From contig JACPHL010000136.1 of assembly GCA_016188625.1 (NCBI GenBank), positions 1 through 7,895 on the forward strand: a stretch of 7,895 bases of DNA, in the 5' to 3' direction. Positions 2,232 through 7,895 of the stretch are shown one piece after another. The stretch comes from Candidatus Rokuibacteriota bacterium. Its GTDB lineage: Bacteria > Methylomirabilota > Methylomirabilia > Rokubacteriales > JACPHL01. Every line of letters begins with the position of its first letter. Position 1 is the first letter of the stretch. Under the pieces are notes generated by a model. That model was not told the DNA's origin. It did no database searches and saw only the letters and a program-made list of their open reading frames with translations. The position numbers and the translations under genes were made by a program.

Positions 2232-2768
2232 TCAGGGGCGGATCCTGAGCTGAGGGTGCCGGCGCCAGAGGTAGCCGGCCATGGCGGCGGCCGCCAGGAG
2301 GTTGCCGACCAGGACGGCCGGCCAGGTCAGCGCGCGCAGCACCGGTTCGGCGACGACCCAGGCCACCGTGACGAAGCCGAACTCGAAGACGACGAAGAGC
2401 AGCAGGATCCCGAAGCCGAGATCGGGCTTCTTCTCGGCCACGGCCAGGAGCCGCGAGGCGATGCCGCCGAGCACGCCGAAGACGAGCCCGTGCACCCAGG
2501 TGTACATGAGGACCATCTCCAGCGAGGCCGACAGGCTCTCGGGCGAGACGAGCCCCTCACCCCGCCGGAAGAGCATGGTGCCGAGGACCGTGGGCGTGTA
2601 GAAGGGCCGGCCCTGCATGGTGTCCACGATCAGGAACCAGACGGCGATCGTCCCGGCGCCGAGGAGACCGGCGACGATCCCTTCGAGGTAGAGCCTGGAC
2701 GTCTCCGCGGCCTCGGTCTCCGCGGGAGCGGGGCTGGTCACGCCGGGCGGGGCCATCGGGGCCGTCAT
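2232..2768 (-). CDS. Four-helix inner-membrane protein, function unknown
   Basis: A 178-residue protein I do not recognise. An Ala/Pro/Glu-rich cytoplasmic-looking N-terminus (1-25) precedes four hydrophobic segments at about 27-49, 83-109, 117-140 and 147-168. The tail is basic (WRRHPQLRIRP). There is no cleavable signal peptide. The loop between helices 1 and 2 (50-82) contains GRPFYTPTVLGTMLF. The third helix is unusually aromatic (LLFVVFEFGFVTVAW) and helix 2 contains a His (TWVHGLVFG); neither forms a cofactor site I know. The ATG is supported by AAAGGAG (2776-2782) 7 bases upstream. It lies 107 bases after the glutaredoxin-like gene and 114 bases before transketolase on the same strand, so co-transcription is possible but the gaps allow separate promoters. 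Hydrophobicity pattern, ribosome site and codon use make a real gene likely. Confidence 0.75.
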   Translation of the reverse strand: MTAPMAPPGVTSPAPAETEAAETSRLYLEGIVAGLLGAGTIAVWFLIVDTMQGRPFYTPTVLGTMLFRRGEGLVSPESLSASLEMVLMYTWVHGLVFGVLGGIASRLLAVAEKKPDLGFGILLLFVVFEFGFVTVAWVVAEPVLRALTWPAVLVGNLLAAAAMAGYLWRRHPQLRIRP

Positions 2769-2875: not shown

Positions 2876-3112
2876 TCAGGACAGGCCCAGGAGGCGCTCG
2901 AGCCTGCCCCGGTCGAAGCCGACCACGGCCTCCCCATCCACGAGCGTCACGGGGGTGGCCCGATACCCGAGCCGATGGAGCTCGTTCAGGGCCTCCGGGT
3001 CCGCCTGGACGTCCTTGGCCATGAACGCGATCCCCTTTCGAGAAAGGAACTCTTTCTCCCGGTCGCAGCTCGCTCAGCCGGGCTGGGTGTAGATGATGAC
3101 CTCTGGGGCCAT
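2876..3112 (-). CDS. Glutaredoxin-like selenoprotein with UASC active site (in-frame UGA)
   Basis: A 78-residue glutaredoxin/NrdH-like thiol-disulfide oxidoreductase read through a UGA codon at 3074-3076. The frame gives MAPEVIIYTQPG, then UGA (residue 13), then ASCDREKEFLSRKGI. UGA stands exactly where relatives have the first Cys of CxxC, and C16 is the resolving Cys. The rest of the fold is intact: ATPVT with the cis-Pro (P54), then a Gly-Phe-Asp-Arg stretch (65-68) typical of the C-terminal helix of small glutaredoxins. Seventy-eight residues is normal for this family. The start is set by GAGGAGG (3118-3124), 5 bases upstream of the ATG. A SECIS-like hairpin follows the UGA. Its likely role is cytosolic reduction of disulfides or of a peroxidase partner; the true substrate and reductant are not visible. 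Alternatives are a Cys-to-stop pseudogene or sequencing error, less likely given the second Sec gene in this window. An ordinary gene caller would miss it. Confidence 0.87.
3040..3076 (-). promoter_or_regulatory. Predicted bacterial SECIS element of the glutaredoxin-like gene
   Basis: Read on the minus strand, the UGA (3076-3074) is followed after 15 bases by GAGAAAG (3058-3052), a 5-base loop AGUUC (3051-3047) and CTTTCTC (3046-3040). This is a perfect 7-bp stem. The apical loop starts 22 bases after the UGA, inside the usual bacterial SECIS range, and has a G in its first two positions, as SelB-binding elements generally do. An alternative hairpin, CCTTTC with GAAAGG, competes for part of the 3' arm. 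Base pairing is directly visible; SelB recognition is inferred. Confidence 0.7.
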
Positions 3113-3117
3113 GGGGG

Positions 3118-3124
3118 CCTCCTC
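3118..3124 (-). promoter_or_regulatory. Ribosome binding site for the glutaredoxin-like gene
   Basis: GAGGAGG on the minus strand, 5 bases before the ATG at 3112. It matters because it shows that translation is meant to begin upstream of the UGA, only 12 codons before it. Confidence 0.75.
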
Positions 3125-3414: not shown

Positions 3415-6400
3415 ATGAACTGCCCGGGATGCGGCTTCGGGGTCTCGCCTGACTTCGCCTTCTGCCCGCGGTGCGGAGCCCGGCTTGGCGCCCGGCCCGC
3501 GGAGGCCGCGGCGCCTGCGTCGCCCGCTCCCGTGGTTCGCGAGCCGGCGCCGTCCCGGGAGATCCCGCCCCCCGCCCGCACGGACACGGTCCGTCCGGGC
3601 GATGAACGGCCGGACGAGGGGGACCGGCGCCTGGTCACCGTGCTGTTCGCCGATCTCTCAGGCTTCACCGCCCTGAGCGAGCGTGTGGACCCCGAGGAGA
3701 TCCGGGCCTTCCAGAACGATCTCTTCCGAGAGATGTCCGTGGCGCTCGAGCGCTATGGGGGCTTCGTCGAGAAGTTCGTCGGCGATGCGGTCATGGCGGT
3801 GTTCGGTGCTCCGCATGCCCACGAGGACGACCCCGAGCGGGCGCTCCACGCGGCCCTCTTGATGCACGAGCGTGTGGCGACGCTCAATCGCCGGTGGGAG
3901 CGGCGCCTCGGCAAGACGCTCGCCCTCCACATCGGCGTGAACACCGGTCCCGTCGTCGCCGGCACCCTCGGCTCGGCCTCGGCCGGTGCCTACGCGGTCA
4001 CGGGAGACACTGTGAACACGGCCTCGCGGCTCCAGAGCGCCGCCCAGCCGGGCGAGACGCTGGTCAGCCTCTCCACGCACCAGCTCACGCAGCACGCGTT
4101 CCTTTTCGAGCCGCTGGGCGAGGTCACGATCAAAGGCAAAAACCTGCCGGTCCAGGTGTACCGGGTGACGGGCCGGCGCAGGACGCAGGGGTCGGCGCGG
4201 GGCCTGGAGGCCCACGGGCTCGTCGCCCCCATGGTGGGACGCGCCGATGAGCTGGGCCAGATGGTGGCCGCCTTCGACCGGATGGTGCGCGGCCGGGCGC
4301 AGGTGGTGAGCCTGGTCGGCGAGGCCGGCGTGGGCAAGTCGCGGTTGCTCCGGGAGTTCTTCCAGACCCTCGAGGACGGCCAGCGTCTCGGAGCCACCAC
4401 CGTGCGCCGCGCCGTCTGCTCCTCGCTCGGCGAGCAGCCGTACGGCGTCTTCGCCACCTTCATCCGTGATGCGTACGGGGTGGCACCGGACGACCCCCTG
4501 GAGGTGGCCCAGGACAAGCTCGCATCTGGGCTGACGGCGCTGGGCGCCGATGAGGTCGAACCCGCGGCCATCGCACCGGTGCTCGGCTACGTGCTGGGCG
4601 TCGAGGCCGCTGAACGGTTCCGCCACGTGGAGCCGGAGCAGCTCAAGCGCCAGATCTTCCTGGCCCTGCGCCGGCTCGTGGAGCGCCGGCTCCAGCAGGG
4701 CCCGCTGGTGCTGGTGGTGGAGGATCTGCACTGGGCCGACGCCGCCTCCGTGGAGCTCCTCCAGTTCCTGGTCGACCGGCTCGCCGATCGGCAGCTCATG
4801 CTCGTGGCGACGTACCGGCCTTCCTTCGACCCCAGAGCCCTCGCCACCAGCCGCGCGTCACACACCGCCCTCCGGCTCACGCCTCTGTCCCCCGGCGACA
4901 GCGAGGCCCTGCTGAGCGCGTATTTCGGTCCGTCGGCAGGACGCCTGCCCCCGCGGCTACGCCAGCTCGTGCTCCAACGCGCCGGCGGTCATCCTCTCTA
5001 TCTCGAAGAGATCGTGCGCAGCCTCATCGCGGGGGGCGTGCTGGTGCGCGGGGAGGACGGGTGGACCGGTACCGCGGACGCCGCCACCGTGCAGGTGCCG
5101 CCGACGATCCACGGGCTCCTCCTCGCACGCGTCGACCGCCTCCCGGCGGACGCCCGGCGCGTGCTTCACGAAGCCGCCGTGCTCGGACCGGTATGCGACG
5201 TCGCGCTCCTCCGCCGGATCGCCAGCGCCCCGACCGCCGTGGAGGCGGCCCTCAAGGTCCTCCAGGACAACGACCTCCTGGAGGAGGCAGCCCGTCCGCT
5301 CGGGGAGCCTGTGACGACGGCCCGCACCGACCGCGCCTACCGGTTCACGCACGTCCTGCTCCAGGAAGTCGTCTACCAGAGCCTGCTGGTCCGGCGCCGG
5401 GTCGAGCTCCACGGGCGCGCCGGCCGGGCCCTGGAGGCCATGGCCGCGAGCGGCCCGAAGCGCCTCGAGGACGTCGAGGTCCTCGGCCATCACTTCAGCA
5501 TGAGCGACGAGAAACTCAAGGGGGCGAGGTACCTGGTCGCGGCGGGAGACTGGGCGCGCGGGATGTACGCCAACGACGACGCCGTCCGCCATTACAAGAG
5601 TGCGCTCGCCACGCTCCGCGAATGCGACGGCTGCGAGGAGGAGCAGTGGGCGGTGCGAGAGCGGCTGGGCGACCTCCTGGCCCCCATGGGCGGCCGTGCC
5701 GCCGCGTTGGCACACTACGAAGCCGTCCTGGCGGCGTTCGCCACCGCCGAGGATCGGCCGGCCCAGGCCAGGCTCCAACGCAAGATCGCCAGCCTCTACT
5801 GGGAGGCCGGGGACCGCGCCGTCGCCCTGGCGCGCTTGCAGGCGGGGCTCAGCCTGCTCGAGGGCCGCGTGGAGCACATCGAGCTGGCACACCTCTACCA
5901 GGAGATGGGGCGCCTCGCGTTTCGGAGCGGTGACAATCGCCGGGCCATCGACTGGGCGCAGCGCGCGCTCGCCCAGGCTGAACCCCTCACCACGGCCTCC
6001 CCCGAGCCGGACACACCTCTCGACGCGGAGCGCCGCAGGGCGGCCGCCTCTGCCGTCGCTCAGGCGTACAACACCCTCGGCGTCGCCCTCGCCCGCACCG
6101 GGCGGCTTCGGGACGCGGTCGGGCACATCGAGCGGAGCGTCGCGGTCGCCGAGGCTCACGACCTCCTGCAGGCGGCCTGTCGCGGCTACACGAACCTCGG
6201 GGTCCTGTACAGCGCCCTGGACCCGAAGCGGGCCATCGAAACGTGCACCCACGGGCTGGAGATGGCCAAGAAGATCGGCGACCTCGGCTTGCAGTCGCGT
6301 CTCAACACCAATCTCGCCGTGGCCTACTGCGCCCTGACCAATCGCTGCGAGGAGCAAGGGCTGAGCGCGGCCCAAGCCGCGCTCGACCTCGACCGCCAAC

Positions 6401-6687
6401 TCGGGCAGCTCGACCACCTCGCAGTGCCGCTGATCGTGCTCGGCCAGATCCACCAGTGCCACGGGGACCCCGAGCTCGCGCTCAAGTACTACCGGGAAGC
6501 GCTGGAGCTGGTCGAGCAGATCGGGGAGCCCCAGCTCCTCTTCCCCTGCTATGATGGGCTGGCCACGCTCTACCTAGACCGAGGCGACGAGCCCCAGGCT
6601 GAGGAGTTCATGGTGAAGGCGCAACGGGTCTGCGAGGAGGCCGGGCTCGAGCCCGACTCCCTCGTGGTTCTGCCATTCCTCGAATAG
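3415..6687 (+). CDS. Zinc-ribbon / class III nucleotide cyclase / AAA-type ATPase / TPR protein
   Basis: A 1090-residue multidomain signalling protein. A zinc ribbon (C3, C6, C17, C20) is followed by a Pro/Ala/Arg-rich linker (21-70). A class III adenylate/guanylate cyclase domain (about 71-250) has both metal-binding Asp residues (D80 in FADLSGFT, D124 in VGDAVMAVFG), a substrate-type Lys (K120) and the Asn/Arg pair of GDTVNTASRL (N201, R205). The second substrate-selecting position, usually Asp or Thr, is Ala (A194), so nucleotide preference is unclear. A P-loop ATPase module (about 270-660) has Walker A GEAGVGKS (302-309), Walker B LVLVVEDLHWAD (431-442) and a STAND/AAA16-like helical tail. 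TPR-like helical repeats fill about 700-1075. No membrane segment or DNA-binding domain is seen, so it is probably cytosolic. The architecture suggests TPR sensing of a partner, ATPase switching and cyclase output. No ribosome site precedes the ATG; a promoter ends 12 bases upstream. The peroxiredoxin-like gene follows after 34 bases, probably in one operon. Confidence 0.94.
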   Translation: MNCPGCGFGVSPDFAFCPRCGARLGARPAEAAAPASPAPVVREPAPSREIPPPARTDTVRPGDERPDEGDRRLVTVLFADLSGFTALSERVDPEEIRAFQNDLFREMSVALERYGGFVEKFVGDAVMAVFGAPHAHEDDPERALHAALLMHERVATLNRRWERRLGKTLALHIGVNTGPVVAGTLGSASAGAYAVTGDTVNTASRLQSAAQPGETLVSLSTHQLTQHAFLFEPLGEVTIKGKNLPVQVYRVTGRRRTQGSARGLEAHGLVAPMVGRADELGQMVAAFDRMVRGRAQVVSLVGEAGVGKSRLLREFFQTLEDGQRLGATTVRRAVCSSLGEQPYGVFATFIRDAYGVAPDDPLEVAQDKLASGLTALGADEVEPAAIAPVLGYVLGVEAAERFRHVEPEQLKRQIFLALRRLVERRLQQGPLVLVVEDLHWADAASVELLQFLVDRLADRQLMLVATYRPSFDPRALATSRASHTALRLTPLSPGDSEALLSAYFGPSAGRLPPRLRQLVLQRAGGHPLYLEEIVRSLIAGGVLVRGEDGWTGTADAATVQVPPTIHGLLLARVDRLPADARRVLHEAAVLGPVCDVALLRRIASAPTAVEAALKVLQDNDLLEEAARPLGEPVTTARTDRAYRFTHVLLQEVVYQSLLVRRRVELHGRAGRALEAMAASGPKRLEDVEVLGHHFSMSDEKLKGARYLVAAGDWARGMYANDDAVRHYKSALATLRECDGCEEEQWAVRERLGDLLAPMGGRAAALAHYEAVLAAFATAEDRPAQARLQRKIASLYWEAGDRAVALARLQAGLSLLEGRVEHIELAHLYQEMGRLAFRSGDNRRAIDWAQRALAQAEPLTTASPEPDTPLDAERRRAAASAVAQAYNTLGVALARTGRLRDAVGHIERSVAVAEAHDLLQAACRGYTNLGVLYSALDPKRAIETCTHGLEMAKKIGDLGLQSRLNTNLAVAYCALTNRCEEQGLSAAQAALDLDRQLGQLDHLAVPLIVLGQIHQCHGDPELALKYYREALELVEQIGEPQLLFPCYDGLATLYLDRGDEPQAEEFMVKAQRVCEEAGLEPDSLVVLPFLE

Positions 6688-6721: not shown

Positions 6722-7375
6722 ATGGACCTGACGTACTCGCGACCACCGGTGCAGCTCGGTGAGCCCGCTCCAGACTTCTCGTTGCCGGCCGCCCATGAGG
6801 AAGGGAGCGTGTCGCTCTCCGAGTACCGTGGGCGCAGCCCCGTGCTCCTCGCCCTGTTCCGCGGCCTGTACTGACACTTCTGCCGGCGGCACGTCGTGCT
6901 GCTCAGCGCAACGGCGGAGAAGCTCGAGCGGGAGGGTGTCCAGACCCTTGCGGTCGTGGCGGCGGACGCGAGGCGGGCCCGGATGTTCTTCCGGTACCGC
7001 CGTCCGCGGATGCCGGTGGGCGCCGACCCCGACCTCACTACGCATCGCGCCTATGGGCTCCCGAACGCCGCCATCACCCCGGAGCTCCTGGAGGCCGTGC
7101 AATCCAAGGCCACGCAGCTGCTCGGCGAGTTGAAGCAGCCGGAGGTGCCGACCGCCGAGGCCTACGATACGCTCGGCCGCCTCGACGGCTATCAGGTCAC
7201 CGAGGGCGACGCCGCGGAGGCCCAGCGACACCAGGTCCAGCTCCTCGGGCAGTTCCTGATCGATCGGGACGGCGTCGTCCGGTGGGCCAATGTCGAGTGC
7301 GCCCGGGACCAACTGGCGGGTCTCGCGCAGATGCCCTCCGACGAGGAGCTGCTGGCCGCGGCCCGAGCCGTGTAG
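6722..7375 (+). CDS. Peroxiredoxin-like (AhpC/TSA-type) selenoprotein with UHFC active site (in-frame UGA)
   Basis: A 217-residue thioredoxin-fold redoxin read through UGA at 6872-6874. The N-terminus has the redoxin opening LGEPAPDFSLP (12-22), then LALFRGLY, UGA (residue 51), HFCRRH. Close relatives read RG-x-x-C-P-F-C-R here, so UGA replaces the first active-site Cys and C54 is the second. The frame stays open and family-like on both sides. Near the C-terminus QFLIDRDGVVRWANVE (177-192) is the conserved beta-hairpin of AhpC/TSA proteins. One more Cys (C193) could act in resolution. The site is UxxC, not the PxxxTxxC of classical peroxiredoxins, so it may be a thiol-dependent peroxidase or a disulfide reductase; the substrate is unknown. 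A good ribosome site precedes the ATG and a SECIS-like hairpin follows the UGA. It lies 34 bases after the first cyclase gene and 95 before the second. Standard annotation would split it or keep only the part after UGA. Confidence 0.89.
6872..6907 (+). promoter_or_regulatory. Predicted bacterial SECIS element of the peroxiredoxin-like gene
   Basis: After the UGA (6872-6874), GGCGGCAC (6885-6892) pairs with GTGCTGCT (6896-6903) around the 3-base loop GUC (6893-6895). The stem is 8 bp with two G-U pairs. A further CG/GC extension (6882-6883 with 6906-6907) lies beyond a small internal loop. The apical loop begins 18 bases after the UGA and its first base is G, matching the usual bacterial SECIS pattern. 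SelB binding is inferred. Confidence 0.65.
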
Positions 7376-7470: not shown

Positions 7471-7895
7471 ATGAAGTGCCCTCGGTGCCAAACTTCGAAC
7501 CCTGAGGGCGCGCGCTTCTGCGAGGACTGTGGAGCGCGCCTGGAACTGACGTGCCCGAGCTGCGGTCAGCTGGTCGGCGTGGGCAAGAAGTTCTGCCGCT
7601 CGTGCGGGGCGGCTTTGCCGGCTGAGCCAAGTCGCTTCGCCTCCCCCGAGGCTTACACCCCCAAGCACCTCGCCGAGAAAATCCTGACCTCCAAGAGCGC
7701 CCTCGAAGGCGAGCGCAAGCAGGTCACCGTGCTTTTCGCCGACCTCAAGGGCTCCATGGAGCTTTTGGCCGACCGCGACCCCGAGGAGGCGCGTCGCCTC
7801 CTCGATCCCGTCCTTGAACGCATGATGGAGGCCGTCCACCGCTACGAGGGAACGGTCAATCAGGTCATGGGGGACGGGATCATGGCCCTCTTCGG
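7471..7895 (+). CDS. Double zinc-ribbon / class III cyclase-like protein, N-terminal part (cut by window end)
   Basis: The first 141 residues of a second signalling protein of the same broad type as the gene at 3415. Two zinc ribbons are visible: C3, C6, C17, C20 and C28, C31, C42, C45. Then comes the linker motif YTPKHLAEKIL (62-72), seen in a widespread family of cyclase/ATPase/TPR proteins. The cyclase domain starts with ERKQVTVLFADLKGSMELL (first metal Asp D91) and reaches VNQVMGDGIMALFG (second metal Asp D135). The residue aligned with K120 of the first protein is Gln (Q131), so the usual purine-selecting Lys is missing. This domain may be a degenerate or regulatory cyclase, or use a different nucleotide. 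The rest, expected from family architecture to be an ATPase module and TPRs, lies outside the window. It is 95 bases after the peroxiredoxin-like gene on the same strand, with no clear terminator between, so it probably belongs to the same transcription unit. Confidence 0.92.
   Translation, partial: MKCPRCQTSNPEGARFCEDCGARLELTCPSCGQLVGVGKKFCRSCGAALPAEPSRFASPEAYTPKHLAEKILTSKSALEGERKQVTVLFADLKGSMELLADRDPEEARRLLDPVLERMMEAVHRYEGTVNQVMGDGIMALF

Follow-up and report, generated by a model that had tools for sequence, protein, structure and literature searches.

The question raised by this locus is whether a minus-strand reading frame at 2876-3112, interrupted by an in-frame UGA, encodes a complete glutaredoxin-like protein in which the UGA is read as selenocysteine (Sec), as had been proposed from the nucleotide sequence alone (hereafter, the sequence-only reading). 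Standard gene callers, which take UGA as a stop, would cut such a gene short after 12 codons or overlook it. The window analyzed here, a stretch of 7895 nucleotides, is contig C264 of a fragmented metagenome-assembled genome (MAG; G000, 2.6 Mb in 344 contigs, 84% complete). Glutaredoxin selenoproteins with a UxxC active site are listed in two papers from 2005 and 2006 (PMC1088965, PMC1794560) and appear in a 2026 review, where a Methylomirabilota MAG with 63 predicted selenoproteins is also cited (PMC13188914). Knowledge of selenoprotein glutaredoxins goes back to 2005, and the phylum has already been reported to be rich in selenoproteins; the gene in the window adds a member. As described below, the locus encodes a redoxin across a UGA that is most likely read as selenocysteine, a finding that is well supported.

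The gene, its fold and its nearest relatives

Read through on the minus strand from the ATG at 3112-3110, the gene (2876..3112) yields a product of 78 residues, MAPEVIIYTQPG-U-ASCDREKEFLSRKGIAFMAKDVQADPEALNELHRLGYRATPVTLVDGEAVVGFDRGRLERLLGLS, followed by a second, terminal UGA at 2878-2876. The first UGA (3074..3076, minus strand) is codon 13 and lies in the active site YTQPG-U-ASC, where it would specify the Sec of a UxxC motif with Cys16 as the putative resolving residue. A Shine-Dalgarno sequence, AGGAGG (3118..3123, minus strand), read directly, is located 5 nt upstream of the ATG. All coordinates given earlier for this hidden gene check against the sequence, and so does the strong ribosome-binding site that had been placed before the UGA.

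In a Pfam profile search, the read-through protein matched Glutaredoxin (PF00462) with 44.1 bits (cut-off, 22.9 bits; E = 2.4e-11) over residues 5-63, so that a single domain extends across the UGA, in agreement with the claim that the frame is family-like on either side. The overlapping wrong-frame ORFs of 76-140 aa over the redoxin gene produced no Pfam match of any kind. The UGA occupies the catalytic Cys column (U13), with the resolving Cys at +3 (C16), and distant homologs have CxxC in the equal columns. An AlphaFold run without an alignment gave a poor model (pLDDT 51.7) and was replaced by a run with a 40-sequence alignment, which predicted a beta-alpha-beta-alpha-beta-beta-alpha redoxin fold with a pLDDT of 95.0. 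The PF00462 match and the alignment-based model together bear out the proposal of a complete small glutaredoxin fold, provided that the UGA is Sec.

The top PDB match of the model was cGrx1 of Clostridium (Alkaliphilus) oremlandii (7C10; TM 0.93, rmsd 0.7), which is 48-49% identical to the window redoxin and is a native selenoprotein in which Sec was exchanged for Cys in structural work (PMC7642778). The two proteins are of equal length and have the same fold, and in cGrx1 (7C10, 7C12), as predicted for the window redoxin, Sec comes first in the active site and Cys16 is the resolving residue; they differ in the active-site motif (UPHC in cGrx1, UASC in the window) and in the host, which is a member of the Firmicutes in the case of cGrx1 only. 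The selenoprotein Grx family of Zhang and Gladyshev (2005/2006) resembles the window redoxin in the glutaredoxin domain, the UxxC motif and the bacterial SECIS element just past the UGA. No name for the Rokubacteria-type subfamily with UxSC/UxAC active sites was found in the available portions of PMC1088965, PMC1794560 and PMC13188914.

Among the best NCBIfam neighbors of the window redoxin, with near full-length alignments, were Uxx-star (NF041212, 55.5 bits) and YruB (TIGR02196, 67.7 bits); NrdH (TIGR02194) scored 60.2 bits. These scores are below the respective curated cut-offs of 66, 88.55 and 85.75 bits, and therefore the protein is not filed under any of these names. The NrdH-redoxins of E. 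coli (1H75) and C. glutamicum (4FIW) share its fold and size but have Cys where Sec is predicted in the window redoxin. Thus, of the original label, the selenoprotein part stands, whereas "glutaredoxin" needs qualification: the protein is nearer to the NrdH/YruB-type redoxins and cGrx1 than to classical glutathione-dependent glutaredoxins.

Conservation of the UGA and of the hairpin behind it

Matches to the query redoxin (P0001) were found in 86 of 195 genomes, and those that are full-length and come from the same order and class have TGA at codon 13. The nearest homolog, in G002, is 79-81% identical to the query, followed by a paralog on contig C9 of the window's own genome (73-74%) and by homologs in G025 and G039 (72-74%). 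In eleven homologs belonging to genomes outside the class (e.g. L071, L079, L080, L091), the same column holds TGT or TGC as part of a CxxC motif. This distribution, UGA within the class and Cys outside it, is what a search for homologs with Cys or Sec at residue 13, suggested by the sequence-only reading, brought to light, and it places the UGA at the catalytic Cys position, as that reading held. Decay of the frame in homologs had been considered as well; the frame stays open on both sides of the conserved TGA. One relative's copy (L052, G033:C76) is broken at codon 13, and those in G019 and G074 appear to be frameshifted. Plasmid records contained only relatives with less than 60% identity, the best of them annotated as glutaredoxin family protein or NrdH.

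Several contigs carry two UGA-containing redoxin paralogs separated by a few hundred to a few thousand bases (L072, G075:C95; L053, G083:C43; L054, G087:C52), and the family has apparently undergone local expansion.

The UGA is followed, at a distance of 18-36 nt, by the hairpin GAGAAAG-AGUUC-CUUUCUC (3040..3058, minus strand), a SECIS element with a 7-bp stem and an AGUUY-type apical loop, AGUUC, in which the G at 3050 is invariant; the perfect 7-bp hairpin noticed earlier is present at exactly this place. The hairpin contains codons that are rare in the other genes of the window, namely AAA (8.8% of Lys), CTT (2.6% of Leu) and TCT (2.6% of Ser). Single-sequence folding of the redoxin hairpin was unremarkable (z = -0.67), and the case for the hairpin therefore rests on comparison. 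Rfam searches near either of the window's two in-frame UGA codons gave no useful match at the gathering threshold or at relaxed E-values, and none that was significant at the redoxin hairpin.

All seven stem pairs are formed in 50 of the 54 UGA homologs. When the same peptides were recoded with synonymous codons according to the codon usage of the window, 0.14 sequences on average, and at most 2, were fully paired in 500 trials. The hairpin is absent from the 11 Cys homologs, which form 1-4 of the 7 stem pairs. Across 38 distinct sequences, 98.1% of cells were paired versus 84.5% after shuffling, with a covariation score of 0.382 versus 0.128, and 0 of 500 shuffles reached any of the measures; sliding the partner strand abolished the signal. 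Changes on both sides were seen at 5 of the 7 stem pairs, as at column pair 20-36, which is A-U in 19 sequences, C-G in 15 and U-A in 4. The covariance analysis of the 3040-3076 region that had been advised thus supports the stem, with five of its seven pairs showing compensatory change. In the close homologs, the gene differs from that of the window by both synonymous and amino-acid changes along its length, and within the six stem codons no more than a single change is seen, located in the loop portion at a third codon position.

These comparisons bear directly on the possibility that the locus is an ordinary CxxC glutaredoxin gene, or a pseudogene, whose TGA arose by nonsense mutation or through a sequencing or assembly error. 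The MAG is fragmented, and its trxB gene (G000:C147:3652-4584; L127, L131) has an in-frame TGA, just before CATC, that replaces the conserved Gly (GGN) of all inspected relatives, none of which has an in-gene stop. Thioredoxin reductase was accordingly rejected as a selenoprotein; its TGA is probably an assembly or sequence error or a nonsense mutation, and a lone TGA therefore proves nothing. The redoxin TGA, however, is not alone: the identical codon is carried by dozens of independently assembled genomes, both of its flanks are conserved as protein, and the stem downstream covaries. An error at this codon is thus highly improbable, the conservation of the TGA being enough to refute it.

Conservation also bears on a regulatory role of the UGA. 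At low selenium, the UGA might end a 12-residue leader to which the downstream genes respond, so that it would act in part as a selenium sensor. The next gene downstream in the ORF list (2232..2768, minus strand) encodes a 178-aa protein without a Pfam match, which, judged by eye, is probably a membrane protein; it lies on the same strand as the redoxin gene and a transketolase gene, and the order of the three is kept in G002 (L023). Among the loci compared, however, only G002 keeps this order, so that no partner can be named from context, and the full protein is strongly conserved, which means that the read-through product is under selection. We regard such regulated decoding as very unlikely.

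Selenocysteine machinery and proposed decoding

The complete set of selA, selB, selC and selD, for which a search of the same genome had been recommended, is present. Contig C273 carries selC, selA and selB together, comprising a tRNA-Sec with a UCA anticodon (75.7 bits) and, by profile search of the genome, SelA (599.6 bits) and SelB (381.4 bits); SelD (395.7 bits) is encoded on C179 by a gene that has one in-frame TGA.

UGA is reassigned in some bacterial lineages, and several genes of this genome contain it in frame, so genome-wide reassignment, for example to Trp or Gly and without any involvement of selenium, has to be weighed. In the redoxin gene, UGA also acts as the terminal stop, at the place where homologs have TAA or TAG, and the 1090-aa cyclase and the 615-aa transketolase of the window have no internal UGA. 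Moreover, the homologs carry Cys, not Trp or Gly, at codon 13, and selA, selB, selC and selD are all in place. Reassignment is barely conceivable against this background.

By computation, then, the window redoxin agrees with a UxxC selenoprotein glutaredoxin in the features that could be tested: the domain with its predicted fold, a conserved frame, a UGA with Cys counterparts and with Cys at +3, a covarying SECIS element and the Sec machinery. The reading that we consider almost certain is that the gene encodes a dithiol redoxin dependent on Sec, with SelB acting at the SECIS element to decode the UGA. Sec insertion itself, along with the chemistry, reductant and substrate of the protein, is inferred, as follows. 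Ribosomes would initiate at the ATG behind AGGAGG and arrive at UGA13, where SelB and Sec-tRNA(Sec), bound to the hairpin 18-36 nt downstream, would insert selenocysteine; translation would then stop at the second UGA, past codon 78. The product would be a small dithiol redoxin with the glutaredoxin fold, in which, by analogy with the family, the Sec13 selenolate would serve as the nucleophile that attacks a disulfide or a related oxidized target, and Cys16 would resolve the mixed intermediate.

The Sec-Cys bond would probably be re-reduced by thioredoxin reductase and not by glutathione. This preference, which is held with modest confidence, draws on the gene neighborhood of paralogs and on what is missing from an incomplete genome: a UGA-containing redoxin paralog, about 36% identical to the query, is encoded close to trxB in five relatives (L137, L140, L143, L144 and L145), suggesting a thioredoxin reductase-redoxin pair in these organisms, and no glutathione synthetase ATP-grasp domain was found in the window's genome, which is 84% complete. 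A candidate partner of the redoxin is the Sec peroxiredoxin-like protein encoded 3.6 kb away. For cGrx1, service to a Sec-containing MsrA has been proposed; in the window's genome, MsrA was represented by no more than a short C-terminal fragment that lacks a TGA, leaving a Sec-MsrA partner unsupported here.

Other in-frame UGA codons in the window and its genome

All four glutaredoxin-domain matches in the window's genome contain TGA, and because of this, annotation blind to Sec would suggest that the genome has no glutaredoxin. The three matches beyond the window gene are on contigs C9, C140 and C39 (L020, L019 and L021, respectively), the one on C39 being a protein disulfide oxidoreductase with a UPHC motif (TIGR02187, 252 bits; cut-off, 185). 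It is conceivable, albeit doubtful, that the UGA lies in the active site of each of these glutaredoxin domains and that the whole small-redoxin layer of this lineage runs on selenium, driven by thioredoxin reductase without glutathione and handing electrons on to Sec-containing peroxiredoxin-like proteins, of which that of the window would be one.

When the genome was scanned with a covariance model of the hairpin, the hits comprised the three redoxin genes of the training set and one gene from outside it (G000:C292:6073-6117, L107; E = 5.2e-6), in which the TGA lies in a UPTC motif. The encoded ArsC-like protein, which scores 54.6 bits against NF041106 (below the cut-off of 85), is a candidate further selenoprotein. 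The covarying SECIS element provides a ready search model for the Rokubacteria/Methylomirabilota group, to which the redoxin adds a well-supported selenoprotein subfamily that is present in several copies in some genomes.

The window itself contains a second selenoprotein gene, which the sequence-only reading had overlooked. This gene (6722..7375, plus strand) encodes an AhpC/TSA redoxin related to SelL (PF00578, 64.5 bits), with a UGA at 6872-6874 in the motif LYUHFC; at this site, relatives carry either U or Cys, with Cys paralogs located near U copies on the same contigs, and a stop-free paralog is encoded on C299 of the window's genome. A predicted fold downstream of the UGA, GCGGCAC-GUC-GUGCUGC (6886..6902, plus strand), is a candidate SECIS hairpin that is not proven, its single-sequence z-score being -0.73. 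Two further plus-strand genes of the window, at 3415-6687 and 7471-7893, lie close together, and each combines a zinc-ribbon-like CxxC pattern at the N terminus with a region of cyclase type; the former also has AAA and TPR regions, and the latter, which was judged by eye, runs off the window.
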